This document shows positions 3,204 to 36,105 of a stretch of 37,682 bases of DNA, in pieces. Both the position numbers and the translations under genes were made by a program. This DNA comes from a virus, in IMG/VR virus record IMGVR_UViG_3300042296_000620, positions 1 to 37,682 of that record, one strand, 5' to 3'. Each line of letters opens with the position of its first letter. Within the stretch, counting starts at the first letter, position 1. A model generated the notes under the pieces. That model did no database searches. It was not told the DNA's origin and saw only the letters and a program-made list of their open reading frames with translations.

Positions 3204-3957
3204 CGTTTCTTCCCGCGTTCTTAGCCTTCTCTGTATTTCCAACGAATTGATTGCCCTGATTACTTCCTTGGACTTTCTTTCTATTCGTCGCTGACCTCTG
3301 AGCAGGTGTAAGACGAGACCAAGCACTAGCAGGGAGATACCTCCGAGTGCCACCTTTACGAATCGCTGGTTTGCCATCTGATGTGGTCCATTTCTCTCTG
3401 GTCCACTTTTTGAGCGAACGCTGTATCTTTCTGGGCTTACCCGTGTAGCCCCCACCTGCTTTTCGGTACTCAAGAGCAAGTAACTGTGCTTTTCTGGCGG
3501 ACCACTGCCCCGGGTTTCCGCCTTTGTCACCAGCCATAATTCTGTTCTTGATGCGCTCACGAAGTTCGGGCTTGGTGTAGCCCCCTTCTTTGAAGTCAAT
3601 ATCAGGCGCGTTTGATAGGAAGTCTTTTGTAGTTGTGTCTACCCATGCGAGAACCTTGCCCTTGACTGTGTCTCTATTTACAATGCCTGCTTCTCTAAGG
3701 AGTTCTTGGAAGTGGTCTTCACCTTTCAGCGGACCAGCGTCAACATTGCTGTAGCCAAATCGGTTGACAAACTGCGAAGGAGTGAAGTATTGGTTTTCTA
3801 ACCACTTTTCCCAATAGTTCTGAAGATTTTCGTCCCTATGGTAGACAGTGTACTCACCCTCTGTGTCATTGTTTTCCGTCTCATAGATGAACAGAGTTGA
3901 CGGGGCTCCAGAGTCTAGTGAGTTTGGACCAACAAGAAAATAATACTTTGATGACAT
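3190..3957 (-). CDS. DUF5872-like phage protein
   Basis: 255 residues. The C-terminal 135 residues carry YTKPELRERIKNRIMAGDKG, then GQWSARKAQLLALEYRKAGG, WTREKW, and RYLPASAWSRLTPAQ. This pattern matches the family I know as DUF5872, found in phages and some large viruses, function unknown. The N-terminal half (about 1-120) is not recognised and contains aromatic-rich stretches (YYFLVGPN, YWEKWLENQYF). The tail is basic (NRKKVQG, AGRNARKS), suggesting nucleic-acid or capsid contact. It starts at the base where the giant gene's stop lies, so it is probably the last gene of that transcript. A related style of short basic domain occurs in the 22687-23382 gene. Confidence 0.75.
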   Translation of the reverse strand: MSSKYYFLVGPNSLDSGAPSTLFIYETENNDTEGEYTVYHRDENLQNYWEKWLENQYFTPSQFVNRFGYSNVDAGPLKGEDHFQELLREAGIVNRDTVKGKVLAWVDTTTKDFLSNAPDIDFKEGGYTKPELRERIKNRIMAGDKGGNPGQWSARKAQLLALEYRKAGGGYTGKPRKIQRSLKKWTREKWTTSDGKPAIRKGGTRRYLPASAWSRLTPAQRSATNRKKVQGSNQGNQFVGNTEKAKNAGRNARKS

Positions 3958-6900
3958 TATTTGTATCCAAATTTCAAATATTTAAACAATTCCAAAAAGT
4001 CTTCATCCGACATTGATGCTACTTCATCTAGTCTTGAAAACACTGCTTTAAGCCTATTGTCATATTCCTCAGACAATTTTCCAAGATAATCCATGTCGGG
4101 CCATTCGCCGTCTTCGTGGAGTGATATCAGTTTATCGACTGCCTGATTCATTGCTTTCACAATGTCTGCCTTCTTCTGCTCTATGTCGGCTCTGTAGTCA
4201 GCAAGGATACTAGGCATGATTGCTATCAATTCTGCTCGTGTCATATCTTCAAGAATCTTCTCATACTGGACAGCGTTCCATCCTATCTGAGACGACACTC
4301 CACCCTTTAAATCAAACTTGTTGACTCTGCTGGTCATGATTTGTCCGTGGTCTATTGGGATAATAACTCTTGTTCCATCACTCTGGATAGATGTTAAAAA
4401 GTTATTTGGGTTTCTATCTGTATTAGCAAGTATTGCGTCAAGAAGAAGCATTCTAATTGCTGATTCTTTGCGCACTGTCATAGGTGCGTAGTCGTCAGGA
4501 TAACGTATTCTGTTGTATCTGTTCTGAGCGAACTCTACTATTAGTGCTGCTCCGCCATTCTTATCTCCTGCGCCACGAGTGCTTCTCTTCACAACCCTTG
4601 TTGCCCCGGGTTCAAAGCCAAGTGCTTGGAGAACCGCTTGACCAACAACCTCGTTTACTATTCCTTCTGGAGCATCAGCAACGGCGGTCTCTGTGATTGG
4701 GAATGGTGATGTCCATTCTCCGTACTTGTCATCTTCTGGTGCCATAAACGAAGCCTCAAACTTTATTCCGAAGATAAGGTTTGTTCTTCTATCTTTGATG
4801 CGCATCATCCCATGGGCGCCTCCACCTCCTCCCAACCATTCAAACCTTCCGTCAGGCTTTGAGAATCTCCATCCAGACCTACGTTCCCCTGGAACATTTT
4901 CTGCGTTATTAAGAATGGCTTCAATAGCATGGGCATCTGGGACTTCAGACAAGTTGCCACCGTCTTCAACGAATGCTACTGAAGCACCTGGTGAGTCAAG
5001 AACCATCTTCTTGCCAGTTCTTGGGTTTATTACCTCAACTCCTTCTGGAACAAAAACCTGGACCGTATGACCTCTTTCGTCCGCTGTGAACATGTCGGCT
5101 TCTGGTGCATTGTCTATAACTTCAATATTATGCGTACCCTGTTTGAAGTCCACTGCCCTTGAGGCAAACCCTGCTGGTTTAGAAGTTTTCTTTTTTGGGG
5201 AAAGGTGTACGGCATCAGCAATTGCTATCTCGTCACGCACTTCTGGTTTCACATCCTGAAGGGAGAGTCTACTGATTGATGCGAACCCAGTAGGACGGGA
5301 CTCCAGTGGTGAACCATCTTCCCTAAGTGCTGGAGTCTTATCTATTTCAGATTCTAAAAGGTCTATAAGTTCAAAAAGGTCACCTTCATAGTCTGTAATC
5401 AGTTGCATAAGTTCGCCAGTTGGACTCATTTTGATATCATGATTTACAGCGTTGAGCGCATCTTCAAGCACATTGCTCTGTTCTCTTGTAGCAAGACCAA
5501 TAGGACCCGCTAAGTAGTCAGTCATTATCTTTCCTAGCAACTCTTGAATCTCTCCTTTTGTGAGCAATTCTTGCAGTTCTGGTTGTCTAAATAATGAAAG
5601 TACTGCAAGAGCATTTGCGTATTCACCGTGTCTATCAAACCCTCGTCCAATTGCAACATGACCTACTGCTTCGTGCAGTGCATCAAACGCTTCAATAAGG
5701 CTGTTGCCTATAGCACTTTCTCCGTCAAATAGAGAACCAATATAGAGTGAAGCCCACGATTCGTTTCCAGACAAAACCATTAATTCGTCGTCTAAATCCA
5801 ATTCTTCAGGATTTGTTCTTTCGCCGTACTCTTGTCTTTCTGTTGCATTTATTAGCGGTAGCAGTTTTTCAAATGCCCATTTATTAAATTTTTGATAACC
5901 AGTGTTCTCGTCAGTGCGTTGTTGGATACCTCGTCTGTATAACGGATTGTTTCCTTCTTTTAGTCTCTTTACAAACTCGTTAATGGTCGCATTGCTTGGA
6001 ATCTCAATCTTTGACCAGTCTCTTCTGTCTGTTAAAAGCCTAAAGAAAACTGGGTGTGGGTCAGCCATAATCATTGGAACATCGTCTGCGCTGATTACTA
6101 TGCGTATTGAGTCAAGAAGTCGGGACTTGTGCTCATCAACACCTTTAGCCATCTTGTACTTTCTGAAAGTGCCATTTGATATTGATTCAAGAGTGCGCTG
6201 GAATGCTTCTTTCGCTATTCTTGCAGCCTTACCCGTGAGGCCCATTTCTTTAGCAATCTCCGCGCCAGTTTCTGAGCCAGAATCTGTGAGGTCCATTTCT
6301 ACCAAACGACGTGACTGACGCACTATGTCGTTAGCAACAATGCTTGCTCTCTCGTCACGAGTTGCGCTGGCAAAACCTCTGCTATTGGCTGAGTCATGTA
6401 CTCTTCCAGTGTCTAAAAGGGCAATTAACTCTCTCAGTTCGTCGTCCGTGGCCACACCCTCTAAAACCCTGGTCATGCGAAACTGCCTGTTGATGGCATT
6501 CTCTGTGTTGTTTTCAAGCCAATATACATTGAATCTATTATCAAAACGAGAATACTCTACACCGTGAAACCATTTTGCTTTCATACGAAGAATGGCAGAT
6601 TCTGGTATGTCGTTCTCTTCAGACCATCTATCCATCATAGAAAATATCGCCAACATATTTGCCCATTCACCATGCCTATCAAACCCACGACCGATTGCTG
6701 CATGACCCCAAAGGTCGTGTGCATTCAAGAAGTCTTCTTCACCAAAAAAATCAAGTATGCCAGCAGTTTCATTCATGTTAAATAAAGATTTAAAGTAAAT
6801 AGTAAATCCCGTCGGAACGTAGCCACCACCATAAATACTACTACCGTCCGATTCTGCACCTGGTGGCACGGGATGCCTGTCTGCTATTGCTCTCCACTTT

Positions 6901-9900
6901 TCCATTAACCATGTAGAAAAACCAACAATATTAAGTTTTGTTTCGTCAACCGAAGGGGAAGGTTCTGCTGTTGTTCTGTATGGAAAGTCAATGCTTTCAG
7001 TAACTTCCAATCTTTCTCCCACTTTTTCAAGAAAGTTTATTATTTCTAACTGACTTTCCCTAGACGGGGCAAGCACAGTAGACCAGTCCCTCTTGTCTGG
7101 AATCTCGTCTACCACTAGTGGGTGGGGGTCTGTTGTTATAAAAGGGACGCCGTCTTCAATACGAACCCTTACCGAGTCAATAATTCTTTGTCTTTGCTCT
7201 TGTGTTATTGCTGGGTTTACGAGAAGTGCTTCAAGTTCTTCATAGTCGGGAAGAAGCCGAGAAAGCACTTCTTTTTCATTTTCAGTTAGTTCTAGTTCTT
7301 CTACTATCTGTTCGTTTGTTTTTCCACGTGGATTAACAGCGTCTGTGCGAGAAGCAAAGCCAATTCTTTTTTGAATAGAATCAATAACTTTTATTTCTTC
7401 TGCGTTATTTAAACTAGCCAACCGTTCATCTGACCGTGTTCTTGAGCGAGATACGGATACGAAACTGCCCTTTGGATTTACGACACGACCTTCGTTTACG
7501 CCACTCCACTTAGCATGCTGTCTATCGGCTATTGCCAGGAGTGCGTTTCTCTCCATTGTGGCTATTGTGTTAGAGAAGGTAAAAGGTTGTTGGTTGTTTT
7601 CATTTGCTGCAAGATTGCGTTCACCATTTCCGTCGGTGTAGTTGTTGAATTGTTCAAATTGCTTATGTGGTTGTGAAGCATGAATAGTTCCTGGTGGTAT
7701 GTCAAGGTCCCTTGCAACAAGACGGACTGCATCGTCGAATCCAGAAGTCTCAGCATAGTGAGGACCACCAGCAATACCGAGTGTATTGTATTCAGTTTCC
7801 ATCAGTTCTCTAGTGATTGCTTTTCTGTCCTCACCCTTTTCTACTTTTCTAACCTTTGCTTTGGGAAGTTTTAATCCTTTTCCTTGCTTGGGAGTAAAGT
7901 ATGTGTCAATGGCGTACAGGTTGTCTAAAGACTCAATGCCGTTAGCGTCAATGACATCCTGAAGCGGGACCGTGATTAGATAGCCACCTTCATCTCCTTC
8001 GGTCCAGAACATATGCTCCTCAACGGCGTGGTTCAGGGTGAAGTGGATAGTCTCTCTGTCCACAGGAAGATATTTACTGGCAGGGTGGATAATAAGATTG
8101 CCTTCATCGTCATACTCTGGAGGGAACTGACTCCAACGAACAAGCACAAGGTTTTCTGGTGACACTTTAGCGTCAGCAATCTCTTGCTCGCTAATGTCGC
8201 CACCGTAGTAACCGTCTGTGTTCTTGCGTCTTACAGCGGCAATTCTTGTTTGAAGAGACTTGATGGCCCCACGAACACCTGCGTCAGAAAGTCTTCCATC
8301 AAAAGTTTCTCTCTCTTTATCCATCTCTTCTTGGCGTTTTTGCGCTATAAGAGCACGGCCCTTTTCTGCATATTCTTTAAACTGCTTTTCTGCTTCTTTG
8401 TCACCTTTGGTTGCTGCATAAAGAAGAGCACTTATCTCCGTGCCGTTGTGATGGTTGTAGCCACTCCCTGTTTCAAACAGGTAAGTGTCTGCGTATATCC
8501 AGTCAAGAGCCATCTCTTCACCCTCTGGTGTGCCACGCTCTAGTCCCGTTATCACGTAGGGGTTTAGTTCAATTACATTGATACCCGTGGTGTCAAGACC
8601 GTGTCTTTCTTCAATACCAAAAGCAACTTTCTCACCGTCAATTTCATAGACATTTGCCTGGACAATGGTTCTAGAAGTCTCAAACTCTCCCCACTCGCCT
8701 TCATCTGCTTTAGTTGAGATAACTGTTGGGTTAAATCGTTCCGTAACTCTCTTGTCTGTATTTATTGTGCTGGAAGCAAATCCCGATGCTTTACTAAAAT
8801 TTAGAGTTTCTTCTGTTGTTACTTCTGCAGTCATTGCTCTGCGCAATCTCTTGCCGAGTTTCTGGTAGTGGTACACGTCACCATCAGTAGCATCACGCGA
8901 CGATGGGTCTCTCTTTATTCTGTCACTGATTAAATCCATGATTACATTCATGATGTTCATGCCATCAGCGTGAGTTATCTCACCATTGTTGAGTTTCTCA
9001 AGCATTTTGTCTACCCATACATCGTCAAGAATTTCACGATTGGTACCGGGAATCATTCTGTCTGCGATGTATTCACGGTTATCTTGGAGCATGCGTATGG
9101 CGGACTTAGCAACACGACGCTCTGGGGTAATTCTGCGACTAAACGCCATATTGGCGTCACTTACAGATGCAAATCCTGGCAATCCACGCTTATCCATTGA
9201 GGAAACAGGTATTGCTGATAGGAAATCCATCTGTTCTTCAAACTTGATTCTGTCCTCTCTTGACATACCGAGAACAGGCAGTACTGGGTCTGTATTGCCA
9301 CCGAACATGCTGCGAACTACGTCTTTCGCAACTGTGTCCATCTCTTCGGTGATGTTCCCATACTCTGGGTCGCCGTCTTTGAGAACCATGCGCCGTTTGT
9401 TTAGTTTTTCTAGTTCTTTCATCCCTCTATCGGTAAGTACCTCGTAACGGATAGAAGACATGGCATCAGTGGGGTCAACATTCATCCATTCACCAGATGT
9501 TGTATCAAACACGTCGGTGTGTTCAATTTCTATTACCGGAATACCGTTTCGTTCACCCTTTGATATGACTTTGAATTTGCCACCCGTGATGCTTTCAATA
9601 GGTACATCTCTCCACTCGCCATTACGGTTTGTGTTTTCAAGGAGATTACTGTTCATCACCTTTGCTCCTATGGACAGTTTGATGACGGCAGAACTATCTC
9701 CACTACCCCTGTTGGTTACCATGTCTGGATTAAAGAAGTTGGGTGAGAACGAAGATAGAGGCATGGAGATTGTGTCACCAATAGATGCGCCAAGAATGTC
9801 CGAGTCTTGCTCTACTGCATTAACGGCATGGTAGAGAGGCATAGATGAATAGGAGTCACCGTCTCTGATTTCGTCAAGTATGCGATTAGTCTTTGATGCT

Positions 9901-12900
9901 GTTGACCTAATAGAAGAGAGCATTCTCTCGTCCAGTTTTGATACGCCTCTGCCTGAACGAATAGCGTTAATCTCTGTGTTACCAGGCATGGAAAGAGGGT
10001 TGTTTCTACTTGGCTGTACACCCATCATCATACGTGACATCTGCTGAATACCGTAGTGGGACTCTGACGCCCACTCGGTGTAAGCGCTTGACAGGTCTGG
10101 CATGAACTTGTCGCCAGGGATAGTAAATGTATAGTCACCAATCTCAAAATGCGTATGACCACGCTCGTCTCTCGTTGATTTGATAACCCGTGATGCTCTG
10201 TCGTCGGTTGAGCGTGAAGAAATGACGTTACCAAGCGTGTTGGATGAGCGCTTTATAACAGTGGCGCGAGCATGTTCAACTTTCTGCGTTCTAGACGCAA
10301 AACCACCACGCGTTTCCCAAGGAATATTGGTTATGTTGGTGTCAAACGGGTCACTGTGTTCACCGAGAACATACAGTAGTGCTGCTCTCAACTCTGGGGT
10401 GATGTATTCATCTCTGTAATCAGAGTCGGGTTGAGCCATTTGGATGTTGAGTTCAGCCCATGTTTCCTGTGGGTTCTTCTGTGCGTACTGACCAGCAAGT
10501 GTGGAAAAAGGAAGTGATGAGTCACCGAAAATGTCTGGGAAATCTGTCGCAAAGTCCTGCCAAACGTCTTGATTGATTCCTGGTTCGTAACCAAAGAACA
10601 TCGCCATTGGCTGAACCTGAGACATGTCATAGGGACTAACGCCATAGTTGACCATTATGTCTTCTACCTGCACACCAGCAGCGTTTGCAATAGTGGCGAT
10701 TCTTGTAATTCCTCTGGTGTATAGTTCTTGACCGTAGTCGTTCATTCTTTGTGTTATTTCTGCAACTTCTGGTGAATTAGGTCCATAAATAGCCTGAGCC
10801 TTGGTTACGGCTCTTCCCATAAAGTGAGAAAGATTGCTTACGTCGCGATGTGATTCTGGTACTGGGATAATTGACAAAGACCCAGGCGACAAGAACTCTT
10901 GTGCAAACTCAACACGGGCTTCTGCTTCGTCTCTTGAAAGGTCTGGGAAAAAGTATGCGTACCTGCTGTCTCTGTTGCCACCAAACCGATAAAGGTCTTT
11001 TTTGGTAACACCACCCCTTATGGCTACTTCATCTCGTATGTCTGGGACAATGGCAAGACCTTGTTTGGGACCGAAGAGACTAGAAAACCACCCATGAGCC
11101 CATTCGTGAATTATCGTTCCTTCAAGGCTTGTACCAAAGTTTGAAATAAGAAACCTTCCGTACTTATCTTTTTCAGGGAATGGACGGAGTTCCCCAGGAG
11201 TTTTACCAACACCCATAAGCACACGGCGTGTTCTTCCAAATTTTGGTGGTGGAGACTTTTGTGGGTCCCAAACACCACGCCATTCACGGTGATGCATGTT
11301 CATAACCATGAATAGGCTTCCTACGCAGTAACCCATAACGCCAGGGTTGGCGACAGAACCATCAAACAACGCCTGCATAACTTCTTGTTCTGCTGACAAG
11401 TTTGTGCTTGTGAACGGGTATGTCATGGCTTCAATTCTTGCGCCATTCATGGAACGGATAGGTATCGGCGTACCGTTCTCAAGAGCGTCTCTGTACTTAC
11501 GCACAGCGTTTCTATCTGTTGGAATCATGGGCAAAGAACCGAATCTGCGCACCTGCCATAAGAATTGTGGAGATTCGTCTAGCGCTTTCTCAATCCACTT
11601 CTCCATTTGAGATACACCCTCTGGTGAGAAGTCAAAGATGTCGGTATCTAACATCTTGGAAAGAATTGAGCGCATGGCTGCCATAGTCATTGTGTCTGGG
11701 TTTCTATTGCCAGCAAGGAGATTCATAAGCGCTAAGTTCACGGCGTCTTCTCTCGTGCGTGGAACAATTGCTTGCGCTATCTCTTTGGGTGTTGCGTCTT
11801 TCAGCCAGTTAGACCCATCAAGGGGTGATGGACTACTTCCGTCAAGCGCTGCTGCAAGGTCTCGTGTGCCGTCTTCGTTTCTCTTGATGCTTAGTGAGGC
11901 AAGACCCGTAGGTCTTTGCATCGCCTGCGTCAGGTCTACTTCTGTCGTTGTTTCCTCACGAGTTGGGAAGGTCACATGCATCTTTATGTCTTTTACCAAA
12001 GCAGGGCTGACACGAGCCATCTGTTCAGCATCACCACTGACCCATGCTGCGTACCCTTCAGCAAATGTTTCTGCTGGGTTTTGCTGTCCATACTGACTCA
12101 ATACATGAGGTGGACCGTTCTCCCAATCAAGCGCCCCACTGCTGTCTATCGCATCTCTTATTTCCTCAACTTGTAGCCAGCGTTTATCAGCAGCGTCGTA
12201 GTTGTATCCAGGGTTTTCTTTACGAAACTTCTTCCACTTTCTTTTCATACGCCACCCGTTGCCCTCGCCCCAACTCATGCGCCAATACCACATTGCTAAG
12301 TAACGAGTTTCCCTATCGGGGTGAAGGTTTGAGGACAAGTAGTTTACAAAGTGACCGAATTCGTGGAACAAAATACTTTCTGGTTTCCAGTTTCCGTTTG
12401 ACTCTAGATACCACTCTGTGCCAGCGAGTTTTTTACCTTTGCCTGCGCGCGCATCGTCAGGGTTTTCTAGAGGTGTTGGGTCTAGGGATAGTTTGTTCAT
12501 TGTGATAAACAATGCCCCAGTGCTACCGTTGAAGATTGCGCCAGGCACTACTTCACCCTTGGTTACGAATAGTGGTGGCATACCAAAGTCTCTTACGTGG
12601 CTTAAGAACTCAGGGCTGTTGTTCAGTGCCTCTGAAACCATGTTCCGTAAACCCATAAGGGCTTCCTCGGAGAAGTCAAATACTTCCTCTGGTTTTACTT
12701 CGCCTTTATAACGACGAGCCTTTCTAAGGACTCTGTTGTAATTGCCTGCCATTTTCTTATCAATGTGAAACTTCAAGCGTTTTAGTTCTAGGTTTACTTT
12801 TTCCGATGGGGTCATTCCCTCTGTATCAACATCAAAGTAGCCAGGACCTGATAAGTCAAACATCCACTGTGACCATGCTTCTAGTTCTTCGCGTGCTTTC

Positions 12901-14270
12901 TCTGGTGTGGATGGAACAACAGCATCAACAATGTCCTCTATTGACTTATCGTCAAACCACCTAGTGCCAGGGAGTGTTACAGAAGCGAATCCTTTGTCGG
13001 TGGTTTTTCTACCCGTGATGGTTCGGAGGATTTCTGTACTTCTATTATCAGTTCTTGGGTCCAAGATACTTTCAGTAAAAAGTTCAGCAACCATTTCTGA
13101 CGGTGAAGTTAGGGCGTACTTAGAGGGTGGCACTATTCCGTCAGGTTTGACATAATCCTCTATGTTGTATTCGTCATCTGGGTCTATGTCTGTATGACCA
13201 CTAGTGAGAAGGGTAGCCAAGTCATACCATTCTATTGGTAAGTCGTAACGATTTATGTTGTTTGGGTCGCTTAGCCAGTTCCACGGTGAGTTGTTTATGA
13301 CATACAACATCTCTCTGACCTTTGGGTCAGGGTGGTTGTAAGAAGCATAAGAGAACAGGTAGTGACCGTATTCGTGTATGAATGTGCTCACCATAAATTC
13401 GTCAGAAGCAAAGTCATCTGGCAATAAGTCAGATAGTTTGTCTATGTCGTCACCAAACAAACGAGACAACACGGAAGTATCCATACTGCCTTTGCCTCTC
13501 CTCTTGCCACCCGTGTATTCGTCTATTCCTTCTTTAGACAGGGTCATGAGCATGTGTTGCGTCATTGCTCCTGATACCTCAGGCTTATTCTTTCGTGTCA
13601 CCATTGGTGGTATGCCGAATCTATCTATCAGTTCTCTCATCTGAGGATTGTTATTGAGAGCATCTACTAACACCTTGCGAGTATTGGCTACCGTCTCTGG
13701 CGATAAGTCAACACCAAGCAACGATTGTCGTGTCTGTGAAAGAAGGTCGTCTACACTGGCATAGATTCTTGGTAGACCACGAGTGCTTGCGTGTATCGCA
13801 ATGTACGACAGTAGGTCGGCAGGGTTATCAGGTACTGCTACCTCTGCTATCTCCTCATTGGTCTTACCTACTGTCCAGTTCTGATAGTCATCTCCCCATC
13901 TACCCGTGGCACTTGCGAGCCCCCTTGCTAACGAGGCAATGTTGGACAATACGGCTGGTCTCTCAAAGGGCGTGCTGTCCTGTACAACACCATCGCCGTC
14001 ACCATCGTATGCGTTGGGGTCATACACTGCTTGCCCTCGTGCTATCTGACCGAGGTTAGAACCTAACGCCTTGACCTCTATGTCGCGTAACGGTTGCGAC
14101 TTTATGCGTCGCTTTGCGCGCGCTGATTCATCAGGGTCAATGTCGTAAGAGAAGGGCATTGATTCATTGTAGAACACGGCACAGTGGTGGTGCGTAGAGA
14201 CTGACGATTTCATCTCCGATACCCAAACCCACCGACCCAGAGTGGGTAATACATCGTGTCGTGCGTACAT
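3957..14270 (-). CDS. Giant modular polyprotein: three zincin modules, duplicated His-rich module, ART-like region, HipA/PI3K-like kinase
   Basis: About 3437 residues, over a quarter of the window. Residues about 80-107 carry DPNAYDGDGDG and VVQDSTPFERPA, shared with two capsid-operon proteins. GFAS or GLAS junctions near 120, 427, 787, 1321, 1698, 1829, 2303, 2631, 2994 and 3033 divide it. Zincin modules: HEYGH at 299-303, HEFGH at 636-640, HEWAH at 1055-1059, each with a later Glu motif (SPSEMVAELF, NPAETFAEGY, NPQETWAELN) suited as third zinc ligand. The 1322-1700 region (PLYHAV, later SSFSPN) weakly resembles an ADP-ribosyltransferase. Two homologous modules (about 2303-2630, 2631-2994) contain HDLWGH or HEAVGH followed by GRGFDRHGE. 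The C-terminus (about 3034-3437) has GIKFEAS, ANTDRNPNNF and PIDHGQ, like HipA/PI3-kinase catalytic loops. ATG 14270 lacks a clear Shine-Dalgarno; Met20 or Met38 are alternatives. No signal peptide. Polyprotein processing and virion packaging are inferred. Confidence 0.85.
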   Translation of the reverse strand: MYARHDVLPTLGRWVWVSEMKSSVSTHHHCAVFYNESMPFSYDIDPDESARAKRRIKSQPLRDIEVKALGSNLGQIARGQAVYDPNAYDGDGDGVVQDSTPFERPAVLSNIASLARGLASATGRWGDDYQNWTVGKTNEEIAEVAVPDNPADLLSYIAIHASTRGLPRIYASVDDLLSQTRQSLLGVDLSPETVANTRKVLVDALNNNPQMRELIDRFGIPPMVTRKNKPEVSGAMTQHMLMTLSKEGIDEYTGGKRRGKGSMDTSVLSRLFGDDIDKLSDLLPDDFASDEFMVSTFIHEYGHYLFSYASYNHPDPKVREMLYVINNSPWNWLSDPNNINRYDLPIEWYDLATLLTSGHTDIDPDDEYNIEDYVKPDGIVPPSKYALTSPSEMVAELFTESILDPRTDNRSTEILRTITGRKTTDKGFASVTLPGTRWFDDKSIEDIVDAVVPSTPEKAREELEAWSQWMFDLSGPGYFDVDTEGMTPSEKVNLELKRLKFHIDKKMAGNYNRVLRKARRYKGEVKPEEVFDFSEEALMGLRNMVSEALNNSPEFLSHVRDFGMPPLFVTKGEVVPGAIFNGSTGALFITMNKLSLDPTPLENPDDARAGKGKKLAGTEWYLESNGNWKPESILFHEFGHFVNYLSSNLHPDRETRYLAMWYWRMSWGEGNGWRMKRKWKKFRKENPGYNYDAADKRWLQVEEIRDAIDSSGALDWENGPPHVLSQYGQQNPAETFAEGYAAWVSGDAEQMARVSPALVKDIKMHVTFPTREETTTEVDLTQAMQRPTGLASLSIKRNEDGTRDLAAALDGSSPSPLDGSNWLKDATPKEIAQAIVPRTREDAVNLALMNLLAGNRNPDTMTMAAMRSILSKMLDTDIFDFSPEGVSQMEKWIEKALDESPQFLWQVRRFGSLPMIPTDRNAVRKYRDALENGTPIPIRSMNGARIEAMTYPFTSTNLSAEQEVMQALFDGSVANPGVMGYCVGSLFMVMNMHHREWRGVWDPQKSPPPKFGRTRRVLMGVGKTPGELRPFPEKDKYGRFLISNFGTSLEGTIIHEWAHGWFSSLFGPKQGLAIVPDIRDEVAIRGGVTKKDLYRFGGNRDSRYAYFFPDLSRDEAEARVEFAQEFLSPGSLSIIPVPESHRDVSNLSHFMGRAVTKAQAIYGPNSPEVAEITQRMNDYGQELYTRGITRIATIANAAGVQVEDIMVNYGVSPYDMSQVQPMAMFFGYEPGINQDVWQDFATDFPDIFGDSSLPFSTLAGQYAQKNPQETWAELNIQMAQPDSDYRDEYITPELRAALLYVLGEHSDPFDTNITNIPWETRGGFASRTQKVEHARATVIKRSSNTLGNVISSRSTDDRASRVIKSTRDERGHTHFEIGDYTFTIPGDKFMPDLSSAYTEWASESHYGIQQMSRMMMGVQPSRNNPLSMPGNTEINAIRSGRGVSKLDERMLSSIRSTASKTNRILDEIRDGDSYSSMPLYHAVNAVEQDSDILGASIGDTISMPLSSFSPNFFNPDMVTNRGSGDSSAVIKLSIGAKVMNSNLLENTNRNGEWRDVPIESITGGKFKVISKGERNGIPVIEIEHTDVFDTTSGEWMNVDPTDAMSSIRYEVLTDRGMKELEKLNKRRMVLKDGDPEYGNITEEMDTVAKDVVRSMFGGNTDPVLPVLGMSREDRIKFEEQMDFLSAIPVSSMDKRGLPGFASVSDANMAFSRRITPERRVAKSAIRMLQDNREYIADRMIPGTNREILDDVWVDKMLEKLNNGEITHADGMNIMNVIMDLISDRIKRDPSSRDATDGDVYHYQKLGKRLRRAMTAEVTTEETLNFSKASGFASSTINTDKRVTERFNPTVISTKADEGEWGEFETSRTIVQANVYEIDGEKVAFGIEERHGLDTTGINVIELNPYVITGLERGTPEGEEMALDWIYADTYLFETGSGYNHHNGTEISALLYAATKGDKEAEKQFKEYAEKGRALIAQKRQEEMDKERETFDGRLSDAGVRGAIKSLQTRIAAVRRKNTDGYYGGDISEQEIADAKVSPENLVLVRWSQFPPEYDDEGNLIIHPASKYLPVDRETIHFTLNHAVEEHMFWTEGDEGGYLITVPLQDVIDANGIESLDNLYAIDTYFTPKQGKGLKLPKAKVRKVEKGEDRKAITRELMETEYNTLGIAGGPHYAETSGFDDAVRLVARDLDIPPGTIHASQPHKQFEQFNNYTDGNGERNLAANENNQQPFTFSNTIATMERNALLAIADRQHAKWSGVNEGRVVNPKGSFVSVSRSRTRSDERLASLNNAEEIKVIDSIQKRIGFASRTDAVNPRGKTNEQIVEELELTENEKEVLSRLLPDYEELEALLVNPAITQEQRQRIIDSVRVRIEDGVPFITTDPHPLVVDEIPDKRDWSTVLAPSRESQLEIINFLEKVGERLEVTESIDFPYRTTAEPSPSVDETKLNIVGFSTWLMEKWRAIADRHPVPPGAESDGSSIYGGGYVPTGFTIYFKSLFNMNETAGILDFFGEEDFLNAHDLWGHAAIGRGFDRHGEWANMLAIFSMMDRWSEENDIPESAILRMKAKWFHGVEYSRFDNRFNVYWLENNTENAINRQFRMTRVLEGVATDDELRELIALLDTGRVHDSANSRGFASATRDERASIVANDIVRQSRRLVEMDLTDSGSETGAEIAKEMGLTGKAARIAKEAFQRTLESISNGTFRKYKMAKGVDEHKSRLLDSIRIVISADDVPMIMADPHPVFFRLLTDRRDWSKIEIPSNATINEFVKRLKEGNNPLYRRGIQQRTDENTGYQKFNKWAFEKLLPLINATERQEYGERTNPEELDLDDELMVLSGNESWASLYIGSLFDGESAIGNSLIEAFDALHEAVGHVAIGRGFDRHGEYANALAVLSLFRQPELQELLTKGEIQELLGKIMTDYLAGPIGLATREQSNVLEDALNAVNHDIKMSPTGELMQLITDYEGDLFELIDLLESEIDKTPALREDGSPLESRPTGFASISRLSLQDVKPEVRDEIAIADAVHLSPKKKTSKPAGFASRAVDFKQGTHNIEVIDNAPEADMFTADERGHTVQVFVPEGVEVINPRTGKKMVLDSPGASVAFVEDGGNLSEVPDAHAIEAILNNAENVPGERRSGWRFSKPDGRFEWLGGGGGAHGMMRIKDRRTNLIFGIKFEASFMAPEDDKYGEWTSPFPITETAVADAPEGIVNEVVGQAVLQALGFEPGATRVVKRSTRGAGDKNGGAALIVEFAQNRYNRIRYPDDYAPMTVRKESAIRMLLLDAILANTDRNPNNFLTSIQSDGTRVIIPIDHGQIMTSRVNKFDLKGGVSSQIGWNAVQYEKILEDMTRAELIAIMPSILADYRADIEQKKADIVKAMNQAVDKLISLHEDGEWPDMDYLGKLSEEYDNRLKAVFSRLDEVASMSDEDFLELFKYLKFGYK

Positions 14271-14451: not shown

Positions 14452-14457
14452 CTGTAT

Positions 14458-14490: not shown

Positions 14491-14526
14491 AGAGGGGTAT
14501 GCCCTATGCCTCGGGGGGTATGCCTC

Positions 14527-14711: not shown

Positions 14712-14718
14712 GAATCCC

Positions 14719-24653: not shown

Positions 24654-26015
24654 TTATTCTCCGGTAGGAGCGCCGTCGAAGTCAACCTTTACGAAGGACT
24701 CTGGACGCTTTACTGCAAGAGCGAGACGCTGTTCTGCGAGCACAACGATTGCGTTGCGAACGAAGAAGTCTGAGTGCTGCTCTGAAATACGGATTGAAGC
24801 CTGCTCACGGTCGTACAACTGTGCGCCTGTACCGAATGCGCCGACAAGTGCGGTGCCTTCTGGAATTGCAGGAGTCTCAACGACTGGCAAACGCCATACC
24901 TTTGGCTCACCACCCATTGCAACTGAAACTGCAACGAGGTACTGGCCATTGCCATCCTTGGTCAACTCAATGTCTTCCCAATCGTTCGGGTGAAGAACGA
25001 CGCCGGATGGCTCGTAGTAAGCGAGGAACGACAGGGTTGCGGCGCGACGGATTGCGTCTGCCTTTGTGTCTGACATTCCTGGGGTTGCTGAGTAAGCACC
25101 GTCTGACCATGCGTATTCCTGGATACCAGTGGTGTTAAGAACACCGGTAAGGTTTTCGCCAGTTCCATCGCCATTGAGGATTTGTGCATCTTCTTGAAGA
25201 CGGAGACCGTACATCAATTCGTTGTCGATGATTGAACGCAACTGTGGCTCGTCTGCAAGGACGTTACGGTGTGCTGCTTCCCAGTGAGCAATGGTGCGTA
25301 CTGGAGCCTGATGGCCTTCAAAGACCATGCTTGACTGTGGCTTGGCAGCGAAAGCAGTGTTTCCACCGTTACGCTCAGCAACTGTTCCTGCGTTATTTGT
25401 TCCGCCGCCTGTTGCGGTGAAACCGAGCATACGGAAGTATTCAATAACTGCAGCAGTTGTGGTGCGGCTTGGGAACAAGTCACGAACGCGCTTTACACGC
25501 TGTGGCGACATGACCATTGGGTCACGCTGGATTGAACCGAACTGAGCATCTGCACCACGGCCCAATGTGCCTGATGGAAGTGCTGAGTAAACGTCCTTAA
25601 CGCTGAATGCGCCGTGAGTTGTGAGTGATGCTCCAAGTTGGAATGGAGAAGGCATGTTTGCGCCATTCTTTCCACCTTGAAGTGTCTTGAATTCTGGTGA
25701 GTTGAGGAACAAGTCGCCGATTGAGTATGAAGAACCGAGGCTCTTTACGCTGTAACCTGCGGCTGCAGCAGTTGCGATTGATTCAACAGAAGCCTGTGAA
25801 CCCCACTGGTCTACTGTGTTCATTGCCTCAAGGCCCTCAATGAGGCCCTTAAGTTCTTTGATATCGGTCATGTTCTTATCGAACGCACTCTTTTGCTGAG
25901 TAGAAACAACAACGGTTCCGTCCTCAATTTTGAATGAGTCTGCAATCGCCTTGTTATCGGCCATCTTGGCGCGAAGTGCTGATTGCAATTCTGTAAGTCT
26001 TGCTTGGTCTGACAT
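24654..26015 (-). CDS. HK97-fold major capsid protein
   Basis: 453 residues. The N-terminal 110 residues are helical and charged (LTELQSALRAKMADNKAIAD), like a scaffold-type delta domain, usually removed during maturation. The shell domain follows: VKRVRDLFPSRTTTAAVIEY (N-arm and E-loop side), GVVLHPNDWEDIELTKDGNG (P-domain spine helix) and the C-terminal EQRLALAVKRPESFVKVDF typical of HK97-type capsids. A strong Shine-Dalgarno CAGGAG lies about 6 bases before the ATG, and a terminator directly follows, as expected for the most abundant virion protein. No separate prohead protease is visible nearby, so the delta-domain cleaving enzyme is outside this window or belongs to one of the large proteins. 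Confidence 0.95.
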   Translation of the reverse strand: MSDQARLTELQSALRAKMADNKAIADSFKIEDGTVVVSTQQKSAFDKNMTDIKELKGLIEGLEAMNTVDQWGSQASVESIATAAAAGYSVKSLGSSYSIGDLFLNSPEFKTLQGGKNGANMPSPFQLGASLTTHGAFSVKDVYSALPSGTLGRGADAQFGSIQRDPMVMSPQRVKRVRDLFPSRTTTAAVIEYFRMLGFTATGGGTNNAGTVAERNGGNTAFAAKPQSSMVFEGHQAPVRTIAHWEAAHRNVLADEPQLRSIIDNELMYGLRLQEDAQILNGDGTGENLTGVLNTTGIQEYAWSDGAYSATPGMSDTKADAIRRAATLSFLAYYEPSGVVLHPNDWEDIELTKDGNGQYLVAVSVAMGGEPKVWRLPVVETPAIPEGTALVGAFGTGAQLYDREQASIRISEQHSDFFVRNAIVVLAEQRLALAVKRPESFVKVDFDGAPTGE

Positions 26016-26133: not shown

Positions 26134-26373
26134 TTATTCTGTTTCTTTACTATCCCTGTCTAAGGAATCAACAATTGCCATAATTGTTTCATCTGCGCCA
26201 GTTGAGTTTTTGAGGACGTCTTCCAACATGGCTTCAAGGTTTTCGCGTAGTTTTTCTAGTTGGTCAACGAACTCTTTGTCGCCCGCCACTGAGTAAGCGT
26301 TTATTAAAACATCAAGTTCGTCTATGTTTTTTCTAAGTGCCGGCATTTTTGCGTCGTTGTTATAGGTTGTCAC
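26134..26373 (-). CDS. Small helical protein upstream of the capsid gene
   Basis: 79 residues, all-helical and acidic (LRKNIDELDVLINAYSVAGD, QLEKLRENLEAMLEDVLKNS). It starts with GTG at 26373, overlapping the preceding stop codon by one base (TAGTG). Position next to the capsid gene and helical, acidic nature would fit a small scaffold or capsid-chaperone role, but nothing specific shows this. Confidence 0.6.
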   Translation of the reverse strand: MTTYNNDAKMPALRKNIDELDVLINAYSVAGDKEFVDQLEKLRENLEAMLEDVLKNSTGADETIMAIVDSLDRDSKETE

Positions 26374-29300
26374 TAGTTTCCTCTTAGTTGTTTTATTTGA
26401 ATTCCTGGAAAGGCGCTCTTAATTACGCTAACCCAAACTGCCCGCGATATTGACGGCATATAGTTTACAAGTATATCAATTGTTGACGAATCTATTTTAA
26501 CAACATCACTTCCAGGAGCACCTCTTTCCAAAGCCGTTGAGGTAATCATTCTTCCAATTTCTGCAATGAGTTCATGTATTCCATAACGAGCGTAAGCAGA
26601 GTATTTCTTTGCTTCATCGTCCGAAACACCGCCACGGTCGTCAATTAAAGCCTGAATCAAGTCTGGTGAAAAAATACTGTCAAGCAAATCTGGCACAATT
26701 CCATTAATGATTAAGTCTTTTCCTGCCCTATCTTGAAGTCTCATGGATACGGCCTGCCGAGCCTGTTTTAGGGCTTCCTTATTTGACATTCCACTATTTT
26801 GTTGCATGATTGTTTGTACTAAATTTTCAATGAGTATTCTTTCAACGTCTTCTAATACTGATTTCTCATCTGGGTATATTTTTTTAATTCTTTTTTCTGG
26901 GTCGCCAAGCAAATCATTAAGACCCGAGAGATAGTCTCTTAGTCTTTTGTCTCGTGCTTGAGTATCTGCAGCAAGCGTTATTGCATCTAAATAATGAAAC
27001 CACTCATGCCTTAAGGTGGTCTGGACGGTATTTTCTTTTTTGTTTTCAATAGTGGAGCCGATTGCTTCAAACTTTCCGTCTATTAGTGTTTTTTCACTAA
27101 TAAGAACCATTCCTAATCCAGGAGAATGAAGACCAGAAGTTCCTTTGTCTTCCAGCGAAGAGCCAGTTAGGTCGTTTTTTCCACCAACATAAAAAGGCAT
27201 TCCAAATTCCTCAATAAGGTTTCTAAAAGATTCATTGTTTAATATTTCTTCCTTAAGAACGTCTCTAAGAGACGTTTGCAAATCATCTCTATAACCAGCC
27301 TTTTTCAATAAATCCGCTAGGTATTTTTCTGACGGATTCATACTTGATACTCGTGCAAATTCCATATGGGGAAGAGTTTTAATTATGCGAGCGGCAAATT
27401 GTTCCATTGTCTCATTTGGGTCCTTTATAGGGACATAAATGTCAAGTACCTTGTCTACGTCTTCAGGAGTTAAAAGTTTTACTTTAAGAGAAAGTTTTCC
27501 AATTGAAATAGGGGTTCCATCTGGCGCATTGGGCATGTAAGTTGTTGCGCGCATTCTGGATGTAAGTTTTTCGGTTAAAAATGCCGATATATTTCGTGGA
27601 TTTCCTTGAGCATCTTTTGTGAAGTAATCTGTTATTTTTTGAGCAAAAAGACGTAATTGCAATTTAGTTGTTAAAAGTGCAGTTGAGTCATTTTTTAAAG
27701 AAGCATTTGTTCTTGATGTTGGAGAAACACCAGATGGCGATGTGGTTGTTGGTTTTGTTTTTGGCGGAGTATATCTTCCACCTTTTTTATTTTTTGAACT
27801 AGAAGCATTGCCCATAAACTCATCTGATTCTTTTAATGCTTCACGCTCCCCATCAGAAAGAACATTTCCTTCTCTTACTTTGGGCGAAAGTTTATTTCCA
27901 TTCATAAACTCATCAAGTTTTTTCTGGTCCAATACGTCAAATTTTCCATCTTTAAAAGACGCAATTAATCTTGGCGGTTTTCCTTGTTCTACATTGTTGT
28001 CCCATATGTAGAATTCGTCTACTTCACCGTTTGATACGGCATCCGAGACCATTCGTGGGATAGAGCGAGCAAAATGACTTGTTTGGTCTGGAATTTTTCT
28101 TCCATCTATTTTTTGGCGCTCTTGGATTCTTTTTGATGCTTCCTCTGCTGGAACATGCACCCAATGAGCAACAACCCTGTCGCCGTTTTGTCTAGCCTGA
28201 GCAATTATTGCTCGCTGTCTTGTTGAGCCAGCACCAGTTGCAACAATGTCCATGCCTTCTTTGCGTGAATCATCCATGGTTCTTTGAGCAGACCTAAGTG
28301 ATTCCTCGTGAACCATTGGTGCCCCAGCGCCATCGTTGTAGCCCGTTAATCCAAGTTTAATAAAGTCTGGGTCAACATGGGCTGCTTCTGTTCTGCCAGG
28401 AACAATGCCCTGAACAACAAGATGCTCATCAAGAACTGTTGATTTGCCACCGCCAGTAGTTCCTCCGACTAAATAAGTAGTTCTTTGTTTTTTGTTTTTG
28501 CTTGAAGGTTTTACTAGTCCCCTAATAATTTCACCCATTTTGCGCCCACCAAGATTCCTGAATGGGTTTGTTTCAGATGCGTCTGGATTTTCAAGCCCGT
28601 CAATTTTGATTGGCTCTGGTTTTATAGGTTTTGAAACAGAAGAAAATCCGCGCGTACTTCTGGAAGAAGCGCCAAAGTTTTCTATTGGCGTACCAGTTAG
28701 TTTTTCGCGCTGCTTTGGCGTGGTTGTGTCAAACCATTTTCCTACAGATGCAAGAGAAATGCTAGACATAGGCTTTTCGGCGTCTTGAGGTTTTGGAACG
28801 CCAGGAAGTGCAGGTCTTTGGAAAGCGCTTCCATCCTGAAGCATTCCATCCCCATCCCCATCTTCTGCTTTAGGGTCAAATCTCTGAGTTAGCGTTCTTG
28901 CAGAAAATCTTGATACTCCAGATATTTTTGGACCAATTGCTTTTCCAATTATTTCCTCTACGAGACTCTTTTTTCTTTTCTTTAATTCATTTGAAAGAAT
29001 AGTTCTAACTACTTTTTGAGTTCTTTTATCTTGGTTATGTCTACCAAGTGCAGTCATGCCAGTGAGGTTGTTGTAGTCAGTGAGATTTGTGCATGGCATC
29101 CATACAATCTTTCCTGATTTAGAAATTCTTCTACTGATGCCGATGCATCCAATTTGTTGCGCTCTTCTTCTTGCGGATTCAATGTCAATAAATACGTCAT
29201 CGTCGTTATCTCTAGGCGAGTATGCAACCTGAGCGCTTTTTGTGGACACTGAAGCGCCGTAAGTCATAGGTGGTACTGACCCGCCATTTACTAGGTTTGC

Positions 29301-29603
29301 TGAATTTCTTGGAGAAACAAGACCGCCGTTGTTAAGTGATTCAACTCCAAAAACTCTTCTCTCGCTAAGTTTTTCCCAACCGTCTCTTCTTTTTTTGCCT
29401 TTTTTCTTTCGTCTTTTAGAACGCTCATTCATGTCGTCTAGCGTCATGCGAGACTTAATAGATTGAGGTTGGGTAATTGCTAAGTACTGCTTAATTGACG
29501 AACATGGAATCCATTCGCCATGAGAGTTTTGGTGCGCGCCAAAGCATCCAATTTGCGCCGCTTGCTTAATCGCAAGCAGTTTGGATACAAACCCGTTTTC
29601 CAC
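26373..29603 (-). CDS. Multidomain capsid-operon protein: IGC/PC motifs, DGDGDG signature, zeta-toxin-like kinase, zincin
   Basis: 1076 residues from GTG 29603. Two copies of an IGCxGxH...W-I/M-PC motif lie at about 18-34 and 150-171. DPKAEDGDGDG and MLQDGSAFQRPA follow at about 242-266, and RGFSSVS at about 318-324. Next is a P-loop domain with GGTTGGGKST (about 378-387), HVDPDFIK, and HWVHVPAEEASKRIQERQ, the pattern of zeta toxins (UDP-N-acetylglucosamine kinases) and related polynucleotide kinases. After a low-complexity Ser/Thr/Pro linker (about 590-640) comes a zincin module with EEFGMPFYVGGKN and HEWFH at 866-870, homologous to the giant protein's modules. It sits in the capsid operon between small coupled genes. 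Kinase-like fold and zincin motif are visible; toxicity, substrates and virion packaging are inferred. The GTG start keeps the first IGC motif. Confidence 0.85.
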   Translation of the reverse strand: MENGFVSKLLAIKQAAQIGCFGAHQNSHGEWIPCSSIKQYLAITQPQSIKSRMTLDDMNERSKRRKKKGKKRRDGWEKLSERRVFGVESLNNGGLVSPRNSANLVNGGSVPPMTYGASVSTKSAQVAYSPRDNDDDVFIDIESARRRAQQIGCIGISRRISKSGKIVWMPCTNLTDYNNLTGMTALGRHNQDKRTQKVVRTILSNELKKRKKSLVEEIIGKAIGPKISGVSRFSARTLTQRFDPKAEDGDGDGMLQDGSAFQRPALPGVPKPQDAEKPMSSISLASVGKWFDTTTPKQREKLTGTPIENFGASSRSTRGFSSVSKPIKPEPIKIDGLENPDASETNPFRNLGGRKMGEIIRGLVKPSSKNKKQRTTYLVGGTTGGGKSTVLDEHLVVQGIVPGRTEAAHVDPDFIKLGLTGYNDGAGAPMVHEESLRSAQRTMDDSRKEGMDIVATGAGSTRQRAIIAQARQNGDRVVAHWVHVPAEEASKRIQERQKIDGRKIPDQTSHFARSIPRMVSDAVSNGEVDEFYIWDNNVEQGKPPRLIASFKDGKFDVLDQKKLDEFMNGNKLSPKVREGNVLSDGEREALKESDEFMGNASSSKNKKGGRYTPPKTKPTTTSPSGVSPTSRTNASLKNDSTALLTTKLQLRLFAQKITDYFTKDAQGNPRNISAFLTEKLTSRMRATTYMPNAPDGTPISIGKLSLKVKLLTPEDVDKVLDIYVPIKDPNETMEQFAARIIKTLPHMEFARVSSMNPSEKYLADLLKKAGYRDDLQTSLRDVLKEEILNNESFRNLIEEFGMPFYVGGKNDLTGSSLEDKGTSGLHSPGLGMVLISEKTLIDGKFEAIGSTIENKKENTVQTTLRHEWFHYLDAITLAADTQARDKRLRDYLSGLNDLLGDPEKRIKKIYPDEKSVLEDVERILIENLVQTIMQQNSGMSNKEALKQARQAVSMRLQDRAGKDLIINGIVPDLLDSIFSPDLIQALIDDRGGVSDDEAKKYSAYARYGIHELIAEIGRMITSTALERGAPGSDVVKIDSSTIDILVNYMPSISRAVWVSVIKSAFPGIQIKQLRGN

Positions 29604-29946: not shown

Positions 29947-32900
29947 TTAACTCGCTTTCTGGGTGTCGTAGATTTCTTTCATTCTATCCCCGGACATTGC
30001 TTCGTCAACAATGGCTAGAGCACCTCTGTTGAACCAAACGATAGGAGAAGTACCTTCATGGTCTACGCCGTCGTATCCATAAATCATGGCTGCATAATGC
30101 TCGTCTTTTGCGGTAATTGACTGCATGTATTTGATTGCGTCCCATAGTTCCTGCCTCATTGCTGGAGGTGCAGTTTCCATGTATTTAAAGAAGTTTGAAG
30201 CCAACTGCCCTGCTTCTGTAGACCAAATTGGGTCGCCATCTGCGAGTGCTTTAGAAATTGCAGCCTTTAGTTCCTTTACCAGGTCTTGTGGGTCCATGTC
30301 CTCAGCCCCCTGTGTGCCGCCACCGATTCCAGAAAGCGCTTTACCTATTTGGCCCCACACTTTTCCGTGCTCTGACTGAAGATTTGCGGCTTCTGATATT
30401 TTCAACACTCTTGCTTCTGGGGAAATAAGACCGAGCGTTCCTTGGTTGTAGGCGAGATATCCGTCCCATCCACTACCTGGTCTAGACCAATATTCTCCAG
30501 GACCGTACGCAGCACCACCTTCACCAGTGATAAATCTTTCCGTGTCTTCAATGTAGTCCTGAATCCATCCGAGTGCGCCCGCCTCGTTGTTTGCGGGTGG
30601 TGGTGGTGTTCCGTGACCACGCTGAATTACCTTCCAGCCTTGACCAGCAAGGTATTCGGCATCCGCTTCGGTAACGGGGGTAGCAAGGGCGTTGTATCCC
30701 TGAGTAGTCCACACGTTTCCTAGTTCCCTACCAGCGTTTTGACCTTTTTGTTCCTGAAGTAGTTCAAGTGCTCTTGGGTCGTCTTTTCCTCTGAAAAGAA
30801 CCGCAAGTTTTTGAATTCCTTTTTCGTTAACCTGTGGAACTCCGCCTTTTCCGGTGCCAAAAATTGTTGGGTTAGCGGCTTTTGTCTTGTCAATAAGTGC
30901 ATTGATGTCAGACTCGCTTGGACCGCCCTTGAATTTGCGCTTAATTCTTCTTGCTGTTCTTGCAAGTTTTCTTCTGGCTCTTTCTTTCGCTCCAGGAGCG
31001 TCTGGTCTTGATGCATCAAGACCACGAACCGTACCTCTTTTTTGTCTACGCAATTCCCTTTTACGACGAGCCTCTTCAGCATTGTCAAAGACCCTGTCAG
31101 CAAATGCTTTTAGTTTTCCGCTCTTTTTTGCACCAATTAATGCTCGTTTTTTTCCTGCTTGCGCTTCTTCAAATCCAGAAAAATAAGAAGATTCAGCCTT
31201 AAGGTCTAGCAGTGGCTCTGTTTTAGGGTTGTCAAAAGGACTCACAAATGGAGATTCTTCGCCCTTCTTGGGCTTTGAAGAAATACCTGCTGAATGAGTT
31301 TTTCCAATTGCTGCTCTTCTTGATGTAGTAGAAAGATGCTCAACAAGGCTCCAGTCATCTGTTTCAGCCATTGAATCGAAAACCATCAAGTCTTCCACGG
31401 CGGAAGTAAATTGTAGTTTTTCTGCTTCAAGTTTTTTTATTTGACTTTCCAGTCCTTTTATTTGTTTATCATCAACACCTGGAGTGAGGGCTGACTTAGC
31501 GCTTTCTGCAGCGTTAATTTCGTTATCAATTTCTTTTCCTATTTTGTCAGAAAGTCTTATGAACGAACTGAGTGCTTCACCAGCAACTCTTGAGTCTTTG
31601 GTTACAGGATTTCCGTCAGCATCTAATTTTTTGATGCCTCTTCCTTTTTGACCAACGAACGTACCCCACCATGTCCCCATTCCTGTATCGTCGGGAATCG
31701 CCTTAACCCATTCCTGAATCTGCTCGTAGCGTTTCTTTAGGTTCTCTTTGACAATTTCTTTCTGTTTGTCATCAAGACTTTCGTGGAACTTGCCGTCTGT
31801 ATCTTTCATTTTGTCAACACCAGGACGGCGTCTAACAACTGCTTTACCAGAGCGTGATGCAAAACCTTCAACCTGACGCTGAGTTCTGGCTTCAGAAACT
31901 CTTCTTGAAACAGACCCGGATTGAGAAGGGGGTCTTGGAGGAGAAATTTCTGGCTTTTCAATTCTTGGTTTCCCACCTGGTTTTCTCGGTGGAGGCGGCT
32001 TTGGACCAGAAGTGTTCGTCATTACTGTTCTCTTGGGTGGAGTCCCTGGAGCAGTAGTCATCATTCTTCTTTTAGGCGGAGTTCCAGGAGCAGTAGTCAT
32101 CCTTCTTCCAGAAGGTGGTTTTGGAGAAGATGACGTGGAGCGTAGCGGCGTATTTTTAATCCAGGCGCGCATTGCAGCAGAAACATCAACAGCACCACCA
32201 GTTGCACGGTCGTTAACGCCAGGAATTGCTGGCCGCTGGAATGGCGTGCCTTCTTGAACAATGCCGTCGCCGTCACCATCCCATGCTTTAGGGTCAAAGT
32301 TTGCTGTTGCTGCACGACCTGCTCTTCTGGCAATTCTTGAGCCAGAACCAATGCTGTCTCCAATTCCTTTTACGGAGACCCCATCTTCAAGGCTCTTGGT
32401 TTCCAATCTGGAAACGCTTCCCATTTTTGTACGCTCAATGCCGTTTGAAACAATGGCCGACTTGAGGCGCATTCCAATTCTTCTTTCAGAAGAACGTCCA
32501 ACGGTCGTGTCTACACGTTGTCTTAGTGATTTGTTTTGCTCACTATCGGGTGCTGCGTTATACATCCATTTGTCAAAGTTGAAAGCATAATTATTTGCTC
32601 TGGCTTCATGAAGGAAACTGCCTTCTTTTATGCTGCTTCTAACATGAAGACACTTGTAGGAAACTGCTGCGGAATACTGATAAGCAGTAAAGTAGTTAAT
32701 CGGTGTATCAACAACTGCTGGAACCCTTGATTCTGATTTGACTCTTGTTGAACCAGCGTGTCTATAGGCTTTTGATTTTACAAAATTAGAGGCGGAACTT
32801 TCACCGTAACCAAATGTGGTAATAAGCGATTTCATATCCGTGTCTGTAACGGTCTTAAATGGTCCCTGAATTATTCCTGCTGGAATCTGCGACTCTCCGA

Positions 32901-35668: not shown

Positions 35669-36105
35669 TTTGTCTCCATTTGAATTGGCAAAGTCTTCAT
35701 TGTTTTTGCCCTAACTATTGATGTATTTTGAGTCTCTAAAAGCGATTTAAATTCAGAAATTCTGTAGTTGATTGATTTAGCCTTCATCTTTGATTTTAGA
35801 ACATCTGAGACAATCTGAACACCAGATAGCATGTGGTCAGATATTTTCTGGGTTTTATTTACAAAAACCCTATTCCATCTATCTTCATCAGGCCCTTCTG
35901 GGTGTTCGTTATCCCAAAGAAATTTATGAAAACTAGTTGATTTAATCGGCTTTAAAGTATTTGACCTAGATGCCGTTTTCCAAAAGTTGACAACTTTCGA
36001 AGTTTCCCCATTAGATATAACACCATCTGAGTCTTTGCTTTTTGCGTCAATAATATAATAAAACTTTTTTTCCGAGTCTATTGTTCCTACAAATACGGAT
36101 TTCAT
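35665..36105 (-). CDS. Hypothetical protein of the structural operon
   Basis: 146 residues, basic, with an N-terminal strand pair (SVFVGTIDSEKKFYYIIDAK) and helical C-terminal half (ISEFKSLLETQNTSIVRAKT). HKFLWDNEHPEGPDEDRWNR is a notable central block. No family recognised. It overlaps both neighbours by four bases (ATGA). Confidence 0.6.
   Translation of the reverse strand: MKSVFVGTIDSEKKFYYIIDAKSKDSDGVISNGETSKVVNFWKTASRSNTLKPIKSTSFHKFLWDNEHPEGPDEDRWNRVFVNKTQKISDHMLSGVQIVSDVLKSKMKAKSINYRISEFKSLLETQNTSIVRAKTMKTLPIQMETK

Follow-up and report, generated by a model that had tools for sequence, protein, structure and literature searches.

True polyproteins, from which a viral protease frees several separate proteins, are characteristic of eukaryotic RNA viruses, and the maturation cleavages known from tailed phages mostly trim propeptides or degrade scaffolds. 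The viral fragment analyzed here (37,682 bases, hereafter the window) encodes on its minus strand one unbroken frame of 3437 aa (P0001; 3957..14270), along which the tetrapeptides GFAS and GLAS recur. This raises the question of what purpose is served by a short peptide that is repeated within one giant protein, and which enzyme, if any, recognizes it. An earlier note on this DNA had proposed either a processing site or a recombination-prone linker.

Junctions and modules of the giant protein

The P0001 frame is real, as it is also present at full length in L001, L002 (90%), L003 (81%) and L007 (62% identical). GFAS is its commonest tetrapeptide (8 observed versus 0.05 expected), and with two copies of GLAS the total for G[FL]AS reaches 10, against 0.15 expected from composition. 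Across the header-bearing proteins of the window, described below, 11 sites were counted, compared with a mean of 0.34 and a maximum of 3 in 200 shuffles, and no site was found in the window's 25 proteins shorter than 600 aa. All ten P0001 sites sit at module borders. The earlier note had reported both the ten copies and their place between modules, and both observations were borne out, the listed positions being within 3 residues of the exact ones. Besides R, V, S, A and I, which the note had given as followers of the motif, L also occurs.

GLAS is found at residues 117 (13911..13922) and 789 (11895..11906), the latter being GFAS in L002, L003 and L007. GFAS is found at residues 427 (12981..12992), 1323 (10293..10304), 1699 (9165..9176), 1830 (8772..8783), 2304 (7350..7361), 2632 (6366..6377), 2995 (5277..5288) and 3034 (5160..5171), all on the minus strand. 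The site at residue 2632 is shifted in L002 and L003 along with a module change. Together, the ten sites delimit 11 predicted pieces of 119, 310, 362, 534, 376, 131, 474, 328, 363, 39 and 401 aa.

Several of these modules could be related to known domains. Modules 2-4 (residues 120-1325; 10296..13913) contain one HExxH each (HEYGH, HEFGH and HEWAH) and may be zincin-like; SprT-like Pfam matches were weak, came from 4 of 12 members and lay under the Pfam cut-off, and the fold search gave no confident match for these modules, just weak zincin-type ones at E>1. For module 5 (residues 1326-1701; 9168..10295), a low-confidence model resembled ADP-ribosyltransferases (ARTs) in the PDB (best E=8e-4) and phage ARTs in a viral library. 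The C-terminal module 11 (residues 3037-3437; 3960..5162) is PI3/PI4-kinase-like (PF00454, E=7.8e-7). A sequence search of modules 1-7 against solved structures gave nothing convincing. P0001 thus combines a kinase-like PF00454 module, an ART fold and HExxH modules, that is, at least two catalytic domains of conflict type, with the ART and HExxH assignments to be read as weak evidence.

The earlier note had suggested structure prediction as a check of whether GFAS lies in disordered linkers. AlphaFold2 models of residues 1290-2330 and 60-1240 (overall pLDDT 52 and 62) placed all seven modelled sites in linkers of low confidence, mostly between units at pLDDT 70-89: ~30 at residue 117, ~33 at 427, ~24 at 1699, ~28 at 2304 and ~27 at each of 789, 1323 and 1830, a range of 24-33 that, given the low overall confidence of the models, stems partly from shallow alignments. 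Pooling of 214 sites revealed that flanks within 8 aa are biased towards disorder (z ~7); for the window sites alone the bias is marginal (p=0.03).

Two further window proteins bear the motif, one as GFSS and one as GFAS, as the earlier note had recognized for this capsid operon. The second polyprotein (1076 aa; 26373..29603, minus strand) has its GFSS at residue 319 (28638..28649, minus strand), and the third (1033 aa; 29947..33048, minus strand) has GFAS at residue 395 (31855..31866, minus strand) followed by another module. In all three proteins, the first motif is preceded by a header of the type FDPxAxDGDGDGxVQxxTPFxRPA. This is YDPNAYDGDGDGVVQDSTPFERPAV in P0001 (~residues 83-107; 13950..14024, minus strand), just ahead of the first site, and lies at ~28797-28889 and ~32218-32301 in the second and third polyproteins. 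By sequence, the header resembles a Ca-binding loop. Its DNA pattern was recovered from at least 118 stretches in IMG/VR, many of them in motif-bearing giants and others in small proteins without the motif; header and motif are therefore separable. Such small proteins (~80-200 aa) occur in L049, L051, L064, L071 and L043 without a GFAS-type motif, sometimes with the header as a tandem pair or at the very C-terminus. The header may be an independent mobile element that binds capsid or tail.

In the second polyprotein, a DUF3721 at the N-terminus lies ahead of a zeta-toxin-like P-loop kinase module (PF06414, E=2e-10), which directly follows GFSS, and an HExxH-type module comes after it. The window also encodes an HK97-type major capsid protein with an N-terminal delta-like domain (24654..26015, minus strand; 93% identical to that of the 118 kb relative G006), a tRNA-Arg (tct; 17219-17292) and a tRNA-Ile (tat; 19158-19232).

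Phage-specific spelling and exchange of modules

To place the motif in a wider context, G006, G007, G008, G009 and G010 were taken whole or nearly whole for comparison. Relatives with a 69-94% identical major capsid protein encode several giants with ~20-30 sites, and each phage uses one spelling throughout: GFAS/GFSS, GLAS, GLRS, GMRS, GLSS, GMAS or [P/A]LGSR. These were among the most over-represented peptides of the respective phages, with 28 GLAS in G009, 16 GLRS in G007, 19 GMRS in G008, GFAS plus GFSS in G006 and about 21-22 LGSR-type sites ([P/A]LGSR) in G010. Counts in header proteins greatly exceeded chance (20 versus 0.89 in G006; 22 versus 0.81 in G009), and those in small proteins of motif-bearing relatives were at chance level. 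No strong repeated motif was found in G015 and G016. Spelling agreement across separate proteins was 0.398 within a phage versus 0.057 between phages (permutation p=0.0002). The earlier note had missed these phage-specific variants, along with the leader header and the adjoining S78 polyprotein described below.

When the sites were aligned on the conserved Ser (P1'), P5 was often Arg, P3 was Gly except in G010, P2 was F, L or M and P1 was A, S, R or G; Ser was often followed by R/S/T and then T/S. These preferences look like the specificity of an enzyme and correspond approximately to the consensus R-x-G-[F/L/M]-[A/S/R]-S-[R/S/T]-[T/S], in which the cut would probably fall before the conserved Ser. 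Spelling can differ even where capsid proteins are ~93% identical, as between the window and G006 (GFAS/GFSS) on the one hand and G009 (GLAS) on the other. The S78 polyprotein ends in a conserved module; at the junction ahead of it, the motif reads GFSS, GFAS, GLAS, GLRS or GMRS depending on the phage, and the residues upstream are unrelated.

Comparison of relatives further revealed that modules are exchanged at the motif. L007 retains most P0001 sites at the same borders but has a different module order with GFAS retained: module 8 of the window follows module 10 there and is flanked by GFAS on either side. A 55% identical copy of module 6 (residues 1702-1832; 8775..9167, minus strand) starts right after GFAS in the S78 polyprotein of L220 (537-666). 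Module 7 (residues 1833-2306; 7353..8774, minus strand) has a homologue (33%, E=8e-39) in G007, where it forms the C-terminal module of another giant and stands behind GLRS. In the same manner, the G006 giant and a 1744-aa protein of G009 end in modules that are 57% identical, preceded by GFSS in G006 and by GLAS in G009. Overall, 15.9% of homology ends fell within 10 aa of a motif, compared with 6.4% by chance and a maximum of 11.8% in 1000 shifts. To judge by these comparisons, transplanted modules adopt the local spelling. One unit of the capsid operon is joined in one phage and separate in others: the C-terminal unit behind GFSS in the 1938-aa protein of G006 is a gene of its own in G009 (616 aa) and in G007. 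This case concerns a single unit, and the gene start does not fall exactly at the motif.

The S78 protease and its polyprotein

A candidate enzyme is encoded in the relatives. In 10 of 16 relatives, an S78 prohead protease (PF04586) was found, which also matches the PHROG head maturation protease (E=1.4e-26). It stands at the N-terminus of a protein of 1.7-4.0 kaa, ahead of the header and then 6-17 motif sites. Its catalytic His and Ser are invariant in the relatives' sequences, and its gene lies upstream of that for the capsid protein in G006-G011, the relatives in which the two were mapped to the same strand. A scan of IMG/VR with the S78 domain returned at least 588 relatives, many with the motif. 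Among 34 distinct S78 ORFs longer than 1300 aa, 31 had one tetrapeptide of the motif class significantly repeated, in nine spellings. Window and G006 are colinear. The gene truncated at the right end of the window (36102..37682, minus strand) matches the last 520 aa of the 1938-aa G006 polyprotein, whose gene in G006 lies close downstream of that for the S78 polyprotein. From this colinearity, the S78 polyprotein of the window phage is expected just past the contig end.

The link between protease and spelling was examined column by column. In 20 distinct S78 sequences, no column cleanly separated the spellings, and the best columns had exceptions. A candidate rule, by which Q (Ala) or E (Arg) before EWSIG, beside the catalytic Ser, sets the spelling, was clean in the first 20 sequences and failed with more, since L252 combines E with 12 GFAS and L226 combines Q with six GLRS. 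S78 domains that are 85-90% identical can go with different spellings, and those at 90-95% share a spelling more often.

Further results concern the range of substrates. The capsid protein is the usual substrate of an S78-type protease. At the expected N-terminal site of the capsid proteins of the relatives and the window, no phage-specific motif was found; most have S[L/V]K-S/G. Tail-associated-lysin-like proteins of 1331-1558 aa (G009, 89119-93672; G006, 10811-15487; G007, 53628-57623) carry the motif in the spelling of their own phage, both near residues 21-43 and near 575-618. It suggests that recognition is not confined to the head, and a model restricted to the prohead would be incomplete.

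Processing model, alternatives and known systems

Based on these findings, we hypothesize that the motif is a processing site in the linkers of modular virion polyproteins with S78 as the likely enzyme, a reading in which we have fairly good confidence as a whole. The part that we hold most firmly is proteolytic cleavage at the motif, at a site specific to each phage. Spelling, embedded protease, module swapping and disordered linkers all agree with the processing site proposed in the earlier note, while cleavage itself is what we infer from them. The assignment of S78 as the cutting enzyme is somewhat better than an even bet in our judgment. In the proposed sequence of events, the giants would enter the prohead through their N-terminal leader and DGDGDG header. 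During head assembly, the S78 domain would free itself and cut the other giants at the motif. P0001 would then yield ~11 pieces, including the HExxH modules, the ART-like fold and the kinase-like module, which would be packaged and ejected with the DNA, as precedents from T4, P1 and SPN3US suggest. Packaging and injection of P0001-type proteins would be in line with the header that they have in common with capsid-operon proteins.

The motif might also be cleaved by metallopeptidase-like HExxH domains of the polyproteins themselves rather than by S78. P0001 has three such modules and neighbouring giants have more, the capsid protein lacks the motif that the tail-lysin-like protein carries, and zincin-like peptidases have been proposed by Iyer et al. 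2017 to process polyvalent proteins (PMC5512222). We nevertheless regard these domains as an unlikely source of the cuts: their zincin assignment is weak (SprT-like, under the Pfam cut-off), S78-type enzymes are established assembly proteases whose own polyprotein bears the motif from just past its header, and cleavage at short linear motifs is known from related prohead proteases, one of which prefers Ser at P1' (PMC10052503). It is a little less probable still that the motif stays uncut and acts, repeated between modules, as a docking or cargo peptide for a packaging adaptor or the inside of the capsid. Short linear motifs that sit in flexible linkers and differ from phage to phage would co-vary with a partner either way; a docking peptide would have no need, however, to occupy nearly every border in up to 17 copies per protein or to follow module boundaries in swaps, and the spelling changes between phages with ~93% identical capsid proteins.

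Two further explanations, a neutral linker and a DNA-level site, are bounded by the nucleotide sequences. The 12 window sites are 12 different DNA 12-mers, in which Gly is encoded by each of its four codons and Ser by TCN as well as AGY, and codon diversity is similar in G006-G010, which indicates that selection acts on the peptide. This also disfavours the idea of a neutral linker, favoured on structural grounds and multiplied within each phage as modules were duplicated. Such a linker would fit the lineage-specific spelling and the more frequent sharing of a spelling by close S78 relatives; we consider it very improbable, since one spelling is common to non-homologous modules and separate genes, and orthologous junctions change spelling while their flanks vary freely. 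The recombination-prone linker of the earlier note, taken as the protein scar of a DNA-level recombination or shuffling site, is already contradicted and hardly credible: each site has its own nucleotide sequence, and a DNA-level repeat at the junctions is ruled out as there is no conserved nucleotide sequence there. What remains of that idea is that modules do swap at motif borders during evolution.

Cleavage by prohead proteases at short motifs or in unstructured stretches has been described before. In T4, gp21 recognizes L/I-X-E, cuts after it and divides core proteins into several pieces; its relatives in giant phages use A-X-E and S/A-X-E sites and cut many head proteins. Substrates of these proteases include injected proteins, Alt among them (PMC9026906). 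SPN3US gp245 prefers Ser at P1' (PMC10052503), and HK97 is cut at K103/S104 within an unstructured stretch (PMC10275583). T4 gp21, phiKZ gp175 and SPN3US gp245 are thus alike in pairing a serine protease with a short motif in many head proteins, some of which are cut multiple times. Their motifs are L/I-X-E or S/A-X-E and mostly serve propeptide removal (PMC9026906, PMC10052503), whereas G-[FLM]-[ARS]-S would part many folded modules of one chain.

The nearest cultured relatives are actinobacterial phages. Gordonia phages Gray, GMA6 and DalanDe and Brevibacterium phage Cantare encode an S78 domain ~40-45% identical to that of the present group, of which ~residues 1-176 alone align, next to the gene of a capsid protein that is ~46-49% identical; header and repeated motif are absent from the proteins examined. 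In the Gordonia, Brevibacterium and Streptomyces phage relatives examined, the protease was present and the motif was not found. DalanDe gp27 (L202, 14937-19838) has its S78 protease behind ~1100 extra, motif-free N-terminal residues and represents a culturable case of a protease-containing fusion. Streptomyces phage Gilgamesh gp48 (L203, 2657-16531) is an unannotated protein of 4624 aa between the portal and capsid genes, with no clear repeated junction motif. A host assignment from GTDB genomes was discarded, as its four matches were to unrelated MAGs and probably represent mis-binned viral contigs. Outside phages, the maturational protease of herpesviruses, assemblin, cuts between Ala and Ser, as GFAS would be cut; it acts on the scaffold and on itself, not on effector polyproteins. 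Assemblin is a relative of the prohead proteases (PMC7411985).

The polyvalent proteins of phages come closest in overall concept. Iyer et al. 2017 describe large multidomain proteins, likewise with ART and HExxH domains, that are likely packaged and injected, with release by peptidases proposed; these are likened to RNA-virus polyproteins, and DdrB of phage P1 is processed (PMC5512222). Processing is ascribed there to embedded peptidases, and no recurrent junction motif appears in the passages covered (PMC5512222). Here, by contrast, a single motif that varies from phage to phage runs across several proteins, one of which is headed by an S78 protease. The earlier note's statement that no phage polyprotein of this layout has been described stands in the sources searched, and P0001 had no match in 50,697 phage records; the general idea of injected multidomain phage proteins that peptidases process has nevertheless been published (PMC5512222).

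The sequence evidence points to a class of phages that stores many effectors in few long genes, with a cut code specific to each phage. On balance, we lean towards the view that widespread uncultured phages possess a private cleavage code, formed by a polyprotein-borne prohead protease and a matching junction peptide, in which modules are mobile as cassettes if they are locally spelled. Such a code suggests how these genes shuffle domains so freely. If true, it predicts the N-termini of dozens of uncharacterised phage proteins, the motif borders give units for structural and functional work on the effector modules, and the co-evolution of a protease with its own multi-gene set of substrates becomes directly testable.
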